From Leptolyngbya sp. SIO1E4 (GTDB lineage: Bacteria > Cyanobacteriota > Cyanobacteriia > Phormidesmidales > Phormidesmidaceae): a stretch of 64,000 nucleotides of DNA. The notes under the pieces were generated by a model that was given only the letters and a program-made list of their open reading frames with translations, was not told the origin of the DNA and ran no database searches. Below, piece after piece: positions 53,196 through 56,566 of the stretch (position 1 is the stretch's first letter; each line of letters begins with the position of its first letter). The stretch covers positions 1,922,001 to 1,986,000 of the forward strand of contig JAAHFU020000001.1 in the NCBI GenBank assembly GCA_010672825.2, in the 5' to 3' direction. A program made the translations under genes and the position numbers.

Positions 53196-53247
53196 TCCTC
53201 TGGCGACCAATCCTTTTTCTGAACCGAGATAACCCAGGAGACTTGTG

Positions 53248-53916
53248 ATGACTTTAAAGTGGCCAGCCCAATACCCCGATCGCATTCAACTGTATTCGCT
53301 GGGAACCCCTAACGGACAAAAAGTTGCGATTGCGCTGGAGGAAATGGCCCTGCCCTATGAGGCCCATCGGGTCGATATCATGGCAGGTGATCAGTTTATC
53401 GATGAATTTGTGGCGATTAACCCCAACTCGAAAATTCCCGCCATTGTTGATCCTAATGGGCCTGGGGGCACGTCGCTATCGGTGTTTGAGTCGGGGGCAA
53501 TTTTGATTTATCTGGCAGAGAAGTCAGGACAATATTTGCCCACTGACCCGGCAGCTCGTAGTGCGTGTTTACAGTGGTTGTTTTTTCAAGTGGGAGGTGT
53601 GGGGCCAATGTTTGGCCAGTTTGGTCATTTTTATAAGTACGCTAAGGAAAAGATTCCCTATGGCATTGAGCGCTATCAAACTGAAGTTAAGCGTTTGTTG
53701 GGCGTTTTAGAAACACGGTTGCAGGGGCAAGACTATCTTGTTCAAGAAGGCTATACCATTGCTGACATGGCGACTTTCCCTTGGGTGGGTGCGCTCGATT
53801 GGGGGTACAACGCGGTTGAGCTACTCCAGAACTTTCCTAATGTTGTGAACTGGTATGAACGCTGTAAACAGCGGTCTGCCGCTGCTCGTGGATTGGAAGT
53901 GACGCAGTTGACTTAA
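53248..53916 (+). CDS. Glutathione S-transferase, YghU-like
   Basis: The N-terminal thioredoxin-like domain reads LYSLGTPNGQKVAIALEEM, with the GSH contact region NSKIPAIVD and FESGAILIYL. The C-terminal helical domain has DYLVQEGYTIADMATFPW. The TPNGQK segment in place of a catalytic Ser or Tyr is typical of YghU/Ure2p-like nu-class enzymes, which have disulfide-bond reductase activity. CAGGAG sits seven bases before the ATG at 53248; a GTG three bases earlier is an alternative. It closes the TetR-controlled group. Confidence 0.9.
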   Translation: MTLKWPAQYPDRIQLYSLGTPNGQKVAIALEEMALPYEAHRVDIMAGDQFIDEFVAINPNSKIPAIVDPNGPGGTSLSVFESGAILIYLAEKSGQYLPTDPAARSACLQWLFFQVGGVGPMFGQFGHFYKYAKEKIPYGIERYQTEVKRLLGVLETRLQGQDYLVQEGYTIADMATFPWVGALDWGYNAVELLQNFPNVVNWYERCKQRSAAARGLEVTQLT

Positions 53917-54116: not shown

Positions 54117-54290
54117 TAACTAGGTTGTCATAAATACTCATCACACTTGTCATATCGTTGGCGTAGCTGCTCCTTTGGAGCTGTGGAACGGAGCAGCATC
54201 GAGAGATCTTAGTGCATGGCGTGAGATGAAGATTCGATTCCTCCCTTCGCTCAGAATGACATCTTAGGGATACTTTGGGCGACCTACTTA
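54117..54290. repeat. Family C element, complete 174-bp copy
   Basis: The left end is TAACTAGGTTGTCATAAATA at 54117. The right end, read inward from 54290, begins TAAGTAGGTCGCC. The middle contains TGTCATATCGTTGGCG, as at 40204-40290. TA stands at both ends. The terminal TAAGTAG equals the first seven bases of the IS630 ends at 22463, so IS630 transposase might move it. Confidence 0.65.
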
Positions 54291-54384
54291 TAGCCCTATT
54301 CAGGTCAATCCAGTACGTTTTGGTGAAGGCAGGGTCTAGGGTTTGGGGTCTAGGGTGTGCTTGATCCAAATGCACACCGCTATA
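54289..54384 (+). repeat. Family B element (96 bp)
   Basis: It starts TATAGCCCTATTCAGG at 54289 and ends CACACCGCTATA at 54384. The core is GGGTCTAGGGTTTG then GGGTCTAGGGTGTG, on the plus strand. It abuts the family C element, sharing the TA at their junction. Confidence 0.8.
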
Positions 54385-54405
54385 TCTTCCATAAAGTTAC
54401 TCATG

Positions 54406-54444
54406 GCTGTCGCTTACCTGTGGTAAACACAGGTAAGCGACAGC
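54406..54444. other. Perfect 17-bp hairpin
   Basis: GCTGTCGCTTACCTGTG (54406-54422) and CACAGGTAAGCGACAGC (54428-54444) are exact inverted copies with a five-base loop. No T-run follows on either strand. It lies about 70 bases beyond the 3' end of the minus-strand peptide gene and could end its transcript, or be a small mobile palindrome. Confidence 0.7.
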
Positions 54445-54513
54445 AGCTATCGGCGATGCAGGCGATTCGTATTGCGCTTACTGATCAATCTCTATTTCAC
54501 CCCAGTTGAGCAA

Positions 54514-54678
54514 TTACCTCCACTCTTCGATTAATTCTTTTCCCACTAATCTGCGTAAGCCTAGAGGATTGTCTAAGTTAGTAACTGCCTTGTATCCACC
54601 CCCATTAATCTGGTCAAGCTCGCGCTTAGTAATAATGTTGAGGTCGTTAGACGAACGAAGATCAGAAATTTTAATCAC
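54514..54678 (-). CDS. 54-aa peptide with double-glycine-type leader
   Basis: A GTG at 54678, with AGAGAGG eight bases upstream, opens a 54-codon frame ending at 54514. The start reads MIKISDLRSSNDLNIITKRE and continues LDQINGGGYK. The ELDQINGG segment (residues 20-27) matches the EL..I.GG pattern cut by C39 peptidases in bacteriocins and other exported peptides. The part after GG is 27 residues, charged and without Cys (ending KELIEEWR). No peptidase or ABC exporter is in the window. The ribosome binding site and motif support it; similarity is not shown. Confidence 0.55.
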   Translation of the reverse strand: MIKISDLRSSNDLNIITKRELDQINGGGYKAVTNLDNPLGLRRLVGKELIEEWR

Positions 54679-54829
54679 AATTTATACCTCTCTTTGTATA
54701 TTTATGGGTTGTGGACGACAGGCTTATTGCCACACGCAAAGTGTAGCTCCTATGCCTCGATGAAAGTATTAGCGTTAGAGAATTAATCGGTCATTTTTAC
54801 TTCAATTATGTCCTTTAAGAACAGTCTGA

Positions 54830-54924
54830 TACAGCGTTTCTGAATCCAGTGAGGTACACAGATCTACCTAGAACCCTTGATCTCAGGAAATAAGCTGTAC
54901 CTCACCTAGAAAGGAAATGCTGTA
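54830..54924. repeat. Family A element (95 bp)
   Basis: From TACAGCGTTTC at 54830 to AAATGCTGTA at 54924, with GTGAGGTACA inside the left end and its inverted copy inside the right end. Same length and ends as 25295-25389. TA stands at both ends. Confidence 0.8.
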
Positions 54925-54964
54925 AGTAGGTCGCTGTCAGTCTTCTTAAGATGGGAAAGAGACT

Positions 54965-55060
54965 TATAGCCTTGTTCAGTTGAGTCCAGTACATCTGGGT
55001 CAAGACAGGGTCTAGGGTTTGGGGTCTAGGGTGTGCTTGATTAGCCTGCATACCGCTATA
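54965..55060 (+). repeat. Family B element (96 bp)
   Basis: From TATAGCCTTGTTCAG at 54965 to CATACCGCTATA at 55060. Nearly identical, on the opposite strand, to 25398-25493. A short family C-like end (TAAGTAGGTCGCTGTCAG) lies between it and the family A element. Confidence 0.82.
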
Positions 55061-55080
55061 TCTCGAGAACCATATCTGCG

Positions 55081-55121
55081 CCCTTCCCAGCCGCCCCTTG
55101 CCAAGGGGCGGCTGGGAAGGG
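55081..55121. other. Perfect 19-bp GC-rich hairpin
   Basis: CCCTTCCCAGCCGCCCCTT (55081-55099) is followed by GCC and its exact inverted copy (55103-55121). It lies 140 bases past the 3' end of egtD on the minus strand. There is no T-run after it. Such a stable structure could stall polymerase or be a repeat-type palindrome. Confidence 0.75.
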
Positions 55122-55260: not shown

Positions 55261-56322
55261 CTACTGGCGTTCACATAACAGGAGGGCAAACCACTGCTTC
55301 TCATTGGTAAAGGTCTGCCTCACCCGTAGGCCATGGGTTAACAGTTCCTCAGATAACCGATGCGGGTCGAATTTACGGGAAATTTCACTCAGCAGCCGTT
55401 CTCCTTGGGTAAAGCTCAAGGTCAGATTCAGCGCCTTCAGAGTCACCGTTTGGTCGCGTAAGCTCTCGATGTACATCTCAATTTGGCGATCGCGAACGTT
55501 GTAAATCGCGATATGGCGGAATTGGGCCAAATCAAAGTTCCCTTGAAAGCGCCAGTTGAGATGGCTCAGCATATTGAGATTAAACGCAGCTGTAATCCCT
55601 TGCGCGTCGTTGTAAGCAGCTTCCAGGGTGGCCGTATCTTTATGCAGATCCACCCCTAGCAAAAAATAATCCCCGACAGCCAGCGCCTGACTCACCGCTT
55701 GAAAAAAGACCTGACAGCGGCTCGGCGATAAATTACCTAAGGTGCTGCCGATAAACGCAATCATCCGATGGGAAAATGCAGCAGTCGGTAAATTAGCCAG
55801 TGCCGACTCGTAGGTGCTCACTAAGCCATGGACTGTGAGTAAAGGATATTCAGTCAACAGGGCACGGGCGCTCTCTTCTAAAATGCCACCGCTGACATCA
55901 ACGGGCACATACCTTAAAGAACATCTACGCTGGCGGTAAACATCCAGCAGAATGCGCGTTTTGCTAGAACTGCCGCTCCCCAGTTCGACAAAATCGCATG
56001 GCCCCACCTGATCGACAATTGCCCCGGCAGACCGCTCTAAAATCTGACGCTCCGTGCGGGTTAAATAATATTCCGGTAATTCAGTAATTGCCTCAAATAG
56101 CTGCGATCCATGATCGTCATAGAAGTACTTGGGCGGCAGGGATTTGGGGGTTTGCGTCAACCCCGTAATCACATCTTGACCGTCTTCTTCTGTGGTTAAA
56201 GATGCGACTGAGGTGCGGTATTCGAGGGTCAGGCGATCGCGGGAGAGTAAGGGGGGAAACAGCGATCTTGAGGGATCTTTTTGGAAGGAGGACTGACTAG
56301 TCTGAGAGGGAGGCACAGGCAT
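55261..56322 (-). CDS. egtD: EgtD, L-histidine N-alpha-methyltransferase
   Basis: EgtD makes hercynine from histidine with three S-adenosylmethionines, the first step of ergothioneine synthesis. The protein has LPPKYFYDDHGSQLFEAITELPEYYLTRTE, VELGSGSSSKTR (SAM-binding loop) and MIAFIGSTLGN, all typical of the family. Start choice is open: ATG at 56322 or GTG at 56355; I use the ATG. The genes egtB and egtC lie upstream in the same direction, with a 240-base gap before egtD that may hold its own promoter. Length fits EgtD. Confidence 0.92.
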   Translation of the reverse strand: MPVPPSQTSQSSFQKDPSRSLFPPLLSRDRLTLEYRTSVASLTTEEDGQDVITGLTQTPKSLPPKYFYDDHGSQLFEAITELPEYYLTRTERQILERSAGAIVDQVGPCDFVELGSGSSSKTRILLDVYRQRRCSLRYVPVDVSGGILEESARALLTEYPLLTVHGLVSTYESALANLPTAAFSHRMIAFIGSTLGNLSPSRCQVFFQAVSQALAVGDYFLLGVDLHKDTATLEAAYNDAQGITAAFNLNMLSHLNWRFQGNFDLAQFRHIAIYNVRDRQIEMYIESLRDQTVTLKALNLTLSFTQGERLLSEISRKFDPHRLSEELLTHGLRVRQTFTNEKQWFALLLCERQ

Positions 56323-56566
56323 GATGTCACTGAATTCGTCAGAAGGGGGGCTCACTTGGCCACATCCAGATCCCCGGTTTTTGCCTACGGAAAAACGCCA
56401 GTTTCTATAGCAGTCGCCAGTCCGATTAGGACAAGACTGCGAGCCATTTTGATGCTGTGCTGTGCATCAGAACGAGACTCGGTGTCCTCATCAAAGTGGC
56501 CAGCGCTATCAATCGGATGTGGTTTCCAAAACCTCTGTGTATTCTGCCATCGGATTTCCAGGATGA

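Follow-up and report, generated by a model that had tools for sequence, protein, structure and literature searches.

A probable solitary double-glycine precursor gene among dispersed repeats of Leptolyngbya sp. SIO1E4

A 54-codon frame lying between dispersed repeats in the genome of Leptolyngbya sp. SIO1E4 carries a pair of glycines halfway along its product, which raises the question of whether it encodes the precursor of a secreted peptide and, if so, which transporter could serve it. The window analyzed here is the whole stretch of 64,000 nucleotides around this frame, and the features discussed are collected in Table 1. The frame (G000:C1:1976514-1976678) translates as VIKISDLRSSNDLNIITKRELDQINGGGYKAVTNLDNPLGLRRLVGKELIEEWR* and divides at the glycine pair into the leader (M)IKISDLRSSNDLNIITKRELDQINGG and the core given in the table. 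GTG 54678 is the sole ATG, GTG, or TTG codon 5' of the ELDQINGG motif, and because an in-frame TAA stands two codons before it, it is the only standard start. This start, the AGAGAGG eight bases upstream of it, and the placement of ELDQINGG at residues 20 to 27 all agree with the original prediction, as does the isolation of the gene among mobile-element-like repeats and hairpins, with dispersed repeats on both sides and 428 bp of single-copy DNA between them. The gene has a GC content of 41% against 51% for the window, the other small double-glycine precursors of this genome having 42 to 47%, and its codon score falls inside the range of those precursors. Scans for a sigma-70-type promoter on the gene's strand and for a T-tailed terminator at the gene found none above chance. 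The repeat of about 100 bp that is present twice in Table 1 contains GGGTCTAGGGTTTGGGGTCTAGGGTGTGC.

Table 1. Features at and around the peptide gene, in window coordinates
Feature	Position	Strand	Remarks
Coding frame, GTG start to TAA stop, 54 residues	54514..54678	-	Translation; codon score
AGAGAGG, ribosome-binding-like	54687..54693	-	8 nt to GTG; read from sequence
Leader, residues 1-27, MIKISDLRSSNDLNIITKRELDQINGG	54598..54678	-	Predicted cut after GG (codons 54598-54603)
Core, 27 residues, GYKAVTNLDNPLGLRRLVGKELIEEWR	54517..54597	-	No Cys or Ser; net charge +1
Single-copy segment, 428 bp, holding the gene	54399..54826	.	No other genome copy except the hairpin's own arms
Dispersed repeat, ~100 bp, downstream of the gene	54286..54387	.	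Dozens of near-identical genome copies
Second copy of the same ~100-bp repeat	54962..55063	.	Dozens of near-identical genome copies
Other dispersed repeat, upstream of the gene	54827..54924	.	99% copy at C1:2223773
Perfect 17-bp hairpin, ~70 nt past the stop	54406..54444	.	No T run
Perfect hairpin	55081..55121	.	
GST-like gene, one flank of the peptide gene	53245-53916	+	Named from reading of the translation
EgtD-like gene, other flank of the peptide gene	55261-56355	-	Named from reading of the translation

The leader ends in the E-hydrophobic-x-x-[IV]-x-G-G motif of double-glycine leaders. Against TIGR01847 (bacteriocin-type signal sequence), residues 14-27 align to model positions 2-15 and score 14.5-14.7 bits, just short of the curated cut-off of 15.7; several true precursors in the same genome likewise stay below this value, and by this score the window peptide ranks third in the genome, in the company of true precursors, with a genome-wide E of about 1. 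The NHLP and N11P (Nif11-like) leader models TIGR03793 and TIGR03798 gave no match at E up to 10, so that the peptide, unlike precursors in Wang et al. (PMC3140520), matches neither of these named families. On its own, the short motif is no rarity: the genome has 16 occurrences of E[LF]xxIxGG versus 10 of the reversed-pattern control. Of these 16 sites, the one in the window alone combines a short frame with a start and a ribosome site spaced from the motif as in a leader. About six short frames per genome that have a ribosome site and a looser GG motif are to be expected. Complete cases combining motif, start, and ribosome site arose about 0.5 times per 8.2 Mb of simulated DNA, and the added demand for K-I-x-D-L close to the N terminus left none in 16 Mb, although these simulated numbers are biased in the peptide's favor because the criteria were chosen after it had been seen. 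In genomic DNA, the KI-S-D-(L/F)-(R/S)...GG pattern alone was no commoner than its reversed control across 291 genomes, and the pattern MKIxD(L/F)...GG gave 20 distinct sites, with only three true leader-like peptides, versus 7 controls.

The frame could be read as a noncoding, AT-richer intergenic stretch that resembles a leader by luck behind a purine-rich run. The TIGR01847 E value, the core without a homologue, and the half a comparable frame per genome that composition supplies when no N-terminal KIxDL is required are all compatible with such an accident. However, the whole leader, from the exact IKIxDL at its N terminus to the distance separating this from the glycines, fits a family that adjoins C39 exporters elsewhere, and 16 Mb of simulated DNA never yielded both leader ends together; we consider a chance frame improbable.

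The family in question is a cyanobacterial leader type of the form M..IKIxDL...LSxxELxxIxGG, which the window leader matches. No model in Pfam or NCBIfam covers the N-terminal part of this leader. Searching the DNA pattern for KIxDL...ELxxIxGG over about 85,000 species returned 87 stretches, and the short leader-like peptides among them were four from cyanobacteria (two Nostoc, Calothrix, and Chamaesiphon) and three from Bacteroidota. Profile A1, built from five leaders including the window peptide, had matches at E 0.05 or better in 34 of 390 genomes of the class, the weaker ones being doubtful, and brought in further members such as MIKIVDIYSSNNQEDFTNLSPEELTSIVGG, MAKITISELPLAELEENSLLNTLSREEITAINGG, and MAKIKISDLSPVGSELFRDSESFLNELQADEMEAILGYGG. 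A seed profile of Nostoc and Calothrix leaders only (four leaders) gave the window peptide 9.6 bits versus 9.1 for the best decoy. Profiles of 23 and 24 members, both without the window peptide, scored it at 23.1 bits (E 4e-6) and 24.2 bits (E 2e-6), while the other 1,128 window frames scored at most 4.1 bits with a profile lacking the peptide. Some circularity remains in these scores, since the pattern that yielded the seeds was derived from the window peptide, which was also part of the profile used to gather the remaining members.

The members of this family (Nostoc L158/L159, Calothrix L185, G256 L244, G189 L238, and others) share with the window peptide an M..IKIxDL start followed by ELxxIxGG about 17-26 residues on. 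They are partly solitary and partly located beside C39 exporters, whereas their cores are unrelated to that of the window peptide, several being Gly-rich and bacteriocin-like or encoded beside APH/HopA1-type enzymes. A solitary Nostoc peptide, MSRIKITDLRPDNQVEERKLSQLELMTIIGG..., is present in two Nostoc species. This peptide, MSRIKITDL(R/Q)PDNQVEERKLSQLELMTIIGG... across the two species, is encoded at L158:632-793 (Nostoc sp. S4) and L159:5180-5341 (Nostoc sp. PA-18-2419), next to a peroxiredoxin-like gene, and is conserved, with 4 of 162 nucleotides differing versus about 16-20% of aligned flank positions. In Calothrix, two peptides of the IKIxDL type lie near genes for an ABC exporter, HlyD, and PpiC. 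Overall, members stand beside cNMP-C39-ABC exporters in five genomes (Calothrix, G189, G219, G002, and G381) and are solitary in Nostoc, G256, G366, G207, G236, G293, and G045; those outside exporter neighborhoods are mostly solitary among the ones examined. When ten member loci were read to about 10 kb per side and scanned for exporter motifs, a C39-ABC exporter of 906-924 residues was found in four (G189, G219, G002, and G381) and not in the other six. Genes for an APH-like kinase and a HopA1-family protein lie near IKIxDL peptides at L272:6967-9294 (G002), L266:6420-8917 (G256), and L271:10199-12523 (G236), the assignment being Pfam-tested in L272 only. This pairing recalls class V lanthipeptide enzymes. 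A literature search on the SESFL motif of family members gave only unrelated papers among those listed.

Homologues of the whole peptide were found neither in 59 relatives nor in 65 genomes of the order, 390 genomes of the class, or viral, phage, and plasmid records, nor did exact short words retrieve any from about 85,000 species; the genomes searched included none of the same genus. Matches in genus g12 (E 0.005 to 0.05) were rejected, as they were internal parts of a longer unrelated protein or stop-containing stretches and had no common leader. The original prediction had named the lack of a homologous frame in related genomes as a result that would refute it, and this is what we found for the core, whereas the leader does have relatives. 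The missing core homologue is not decisive, given the absence of same-genus genomes from the search and the existence of other such cores: for the mature parts of EbfG1-4, other cyanobacteria contain no homologues (Parnasa et al. 2016, PMC4997328).

A further reading would make the gene a relic, that is, a once-functional precursor left stranded when repeats broke up or moved its secretion cluster, with expression lost. Its isolation between dispersed repeats, the empty promoter scan, and the lack of a relative in related genomes fit this history. On the other hand, the frame, start, and ribosome site are all intact, the island holds no remnant of exporter or modifying genes, and solitary members with an IKIxDL leader are common, and we regard a relic as quite improbable. 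Taken as a precursor gene, the locus has several points against it, namely the core without a homologue, the scan without a promoter or terminator above chance, the seed-profile score barely exceeding that of the best decoy, the circularity, and the GTG start.

The core contains one Thr, and a possible amphipathic helix in it was no better than in shuffled sequences. It lacks the Cys that lanthipeptides combine with Ser or Thr, and no linked synthetase is present, the neighbors being the GST-like and EgtD-like genes. Likewise, the microviridin model NF033738, for a TxKxPSD-type core, gave no match at E up to 10. The core resembles neither a lantibiotic nor a microviridin nor a Gly-rich class II bacteriocin.

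Six C39 domains are encoded in the genome, and five have the catalytic Cys; double-glycine precursors other than the window peptide are numerous and lie close to these domains or at the ends of contigs. None of the six domains is on the 2.7-Mb contig of the window, which strongly upholds the earlier remark that no exporter is near. The exporter at C4:575606 consists of cNMP, C39, ABC membrane, and ATPase domains and is located in the microviridin cluster with HlyD and PpiC partners. It is 63-80% identical to the family-linked exporters, including that of Calothrix, versus 47-53% for the next exporter of this genome. In a tree with some long branches elsewhere, C4:575606 groups with the IKIxDL-linked exporters (87/99 for the group, 100/99 for its pair with G002). 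Based on this grouping and identity, C4:575606 is the likeliest candidate for the unlinked transporter. The sixth, at C2:56190-56558 (L022:8442-11579), is a C39-like domain without the catalytic cysteine in an ABC exporter, which thus probably exports without cutting.

Alternatively, the peptide may be a real precursor served by a different exporter of the same genome, such as C4:281452, possibly with a modified core. The peptide MKINDLNHLSTLSEDAPIMGGG adjoins C4:281452 and has KIxDL in common with the window leader, and the APH/HopA1-type genes beside some IKIxDL peptides indicate that modified members exist. However, comparison of the window leader with individual precursors of this genome gave no significant match; the likeness to the MKINDL...GG precursor at C4:274k is marginal, with 4.3% of shuffles as good. 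Moreover, the IKIxDL-linked exporters resemble C4:575606 and not C4:281452, and a core with neither Cys nor Ser and a single Thr provides little substrate for lanthionine chemistry. We find this alternative unlikely.

The reading that we prefer, and consider likely, is that of a real solitary precursor gene with an unlinked C39 exporter. The orphan precursor with a transporter encoded elsewhere that was originally proposed is supported by the match of the whole leader to a family, by solitary members in other genomes, and by a fitting exporter in this one. The frame, the ribosome site, the leader-family match, and the domains and grouping of the exporter can be read directly in the sequence, and on this basis the cell probably cuts and secretes the peptide with such a transporter. 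A C39 peptidase-ABC exporter, most likely the cNMP-binding/C39/ABC protein C4:575606 with its HlyD and PpiC partners, would recognize the 27-residue IKIxDL...ELxxIxGG leader, cut after GG, and export the 27-residue core, probably unmodified. Outside the cell, the core may act in communication or in the matrix or biofilm, as for EbfG1-4, the closest precedent with tested roles (PMC4997328). These roles are favored over killing because the core is neither Gly-rich, hydrophobic, nor Cys-bearing; less probably, it may be antimicrobial.

Secreted double-glycine peptides are a known kind: Wang et al. 2011 listed 290 cyanobacterial precursors, 46 of them unannotated (PMC3140520). Like those, the window peptide is short, has a GG leader of the E(I/L)xx(I/V)xG(G/A) type, and comes from a genome with short- and long-type C39 exporters. 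Unlike those, which were collected around exporters, it has no exporter on its contig. EbfG1-4 of Synechococcus elongatus are also small GG proteins, with secretion aided by the C39 peptidase transporter PteB; however, they are 9-10 kDa precursors from one four-gene transcript with tested biofilm roles, whereas the window holds a single predicted precursor of about 6 kDa (PMC4997328). What is new is a solitary member with an unrelated core, together with a leader family, outlined here, that no curated model covers. The usual precursor searches begin at exporter neighborhoods and so miss solitary precursors; if the peptide is real, the leader sequence alone can find them. The family profile picks up peptides with such leaders in many genomes of the class, and these go together with one type of exporter. 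More tentatively, and with somewhat less confidence than doubt, we suggest that a widespread, unmodeled cyanobacterial IKIxDL...GG family with often solitary genes forms an unlinked secretome: many scattered, fast-changing peptides, that of the window gene included, would be served by one group of cNMP-C39-ABC exporters. With its five catalytic C39 exporters, the strain would make the pairing of exporter and peptide testable.

Several other precursors of this genome were observed. Six GG precursors stand in a row at G000:C4:568,694-570,494 (L017:2695-4495), at least one of them matching NF033738, and have a cNMP-C39-ABC exporter and its HlyD and PpiC genes upstream. Nif11-type precursors number at least seven, several of which end in KW, and are found at G000:C3:101-6836 and C5:555,822-556,178 (L035, L036); the C3 and C5 contigs carry them at their ends and may adjoin. 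Several GG precursors also lie at C3:9-25k, and the core of another, at G000:C8:6130-6306 (L037), has the unit LRRENLDKD twice.
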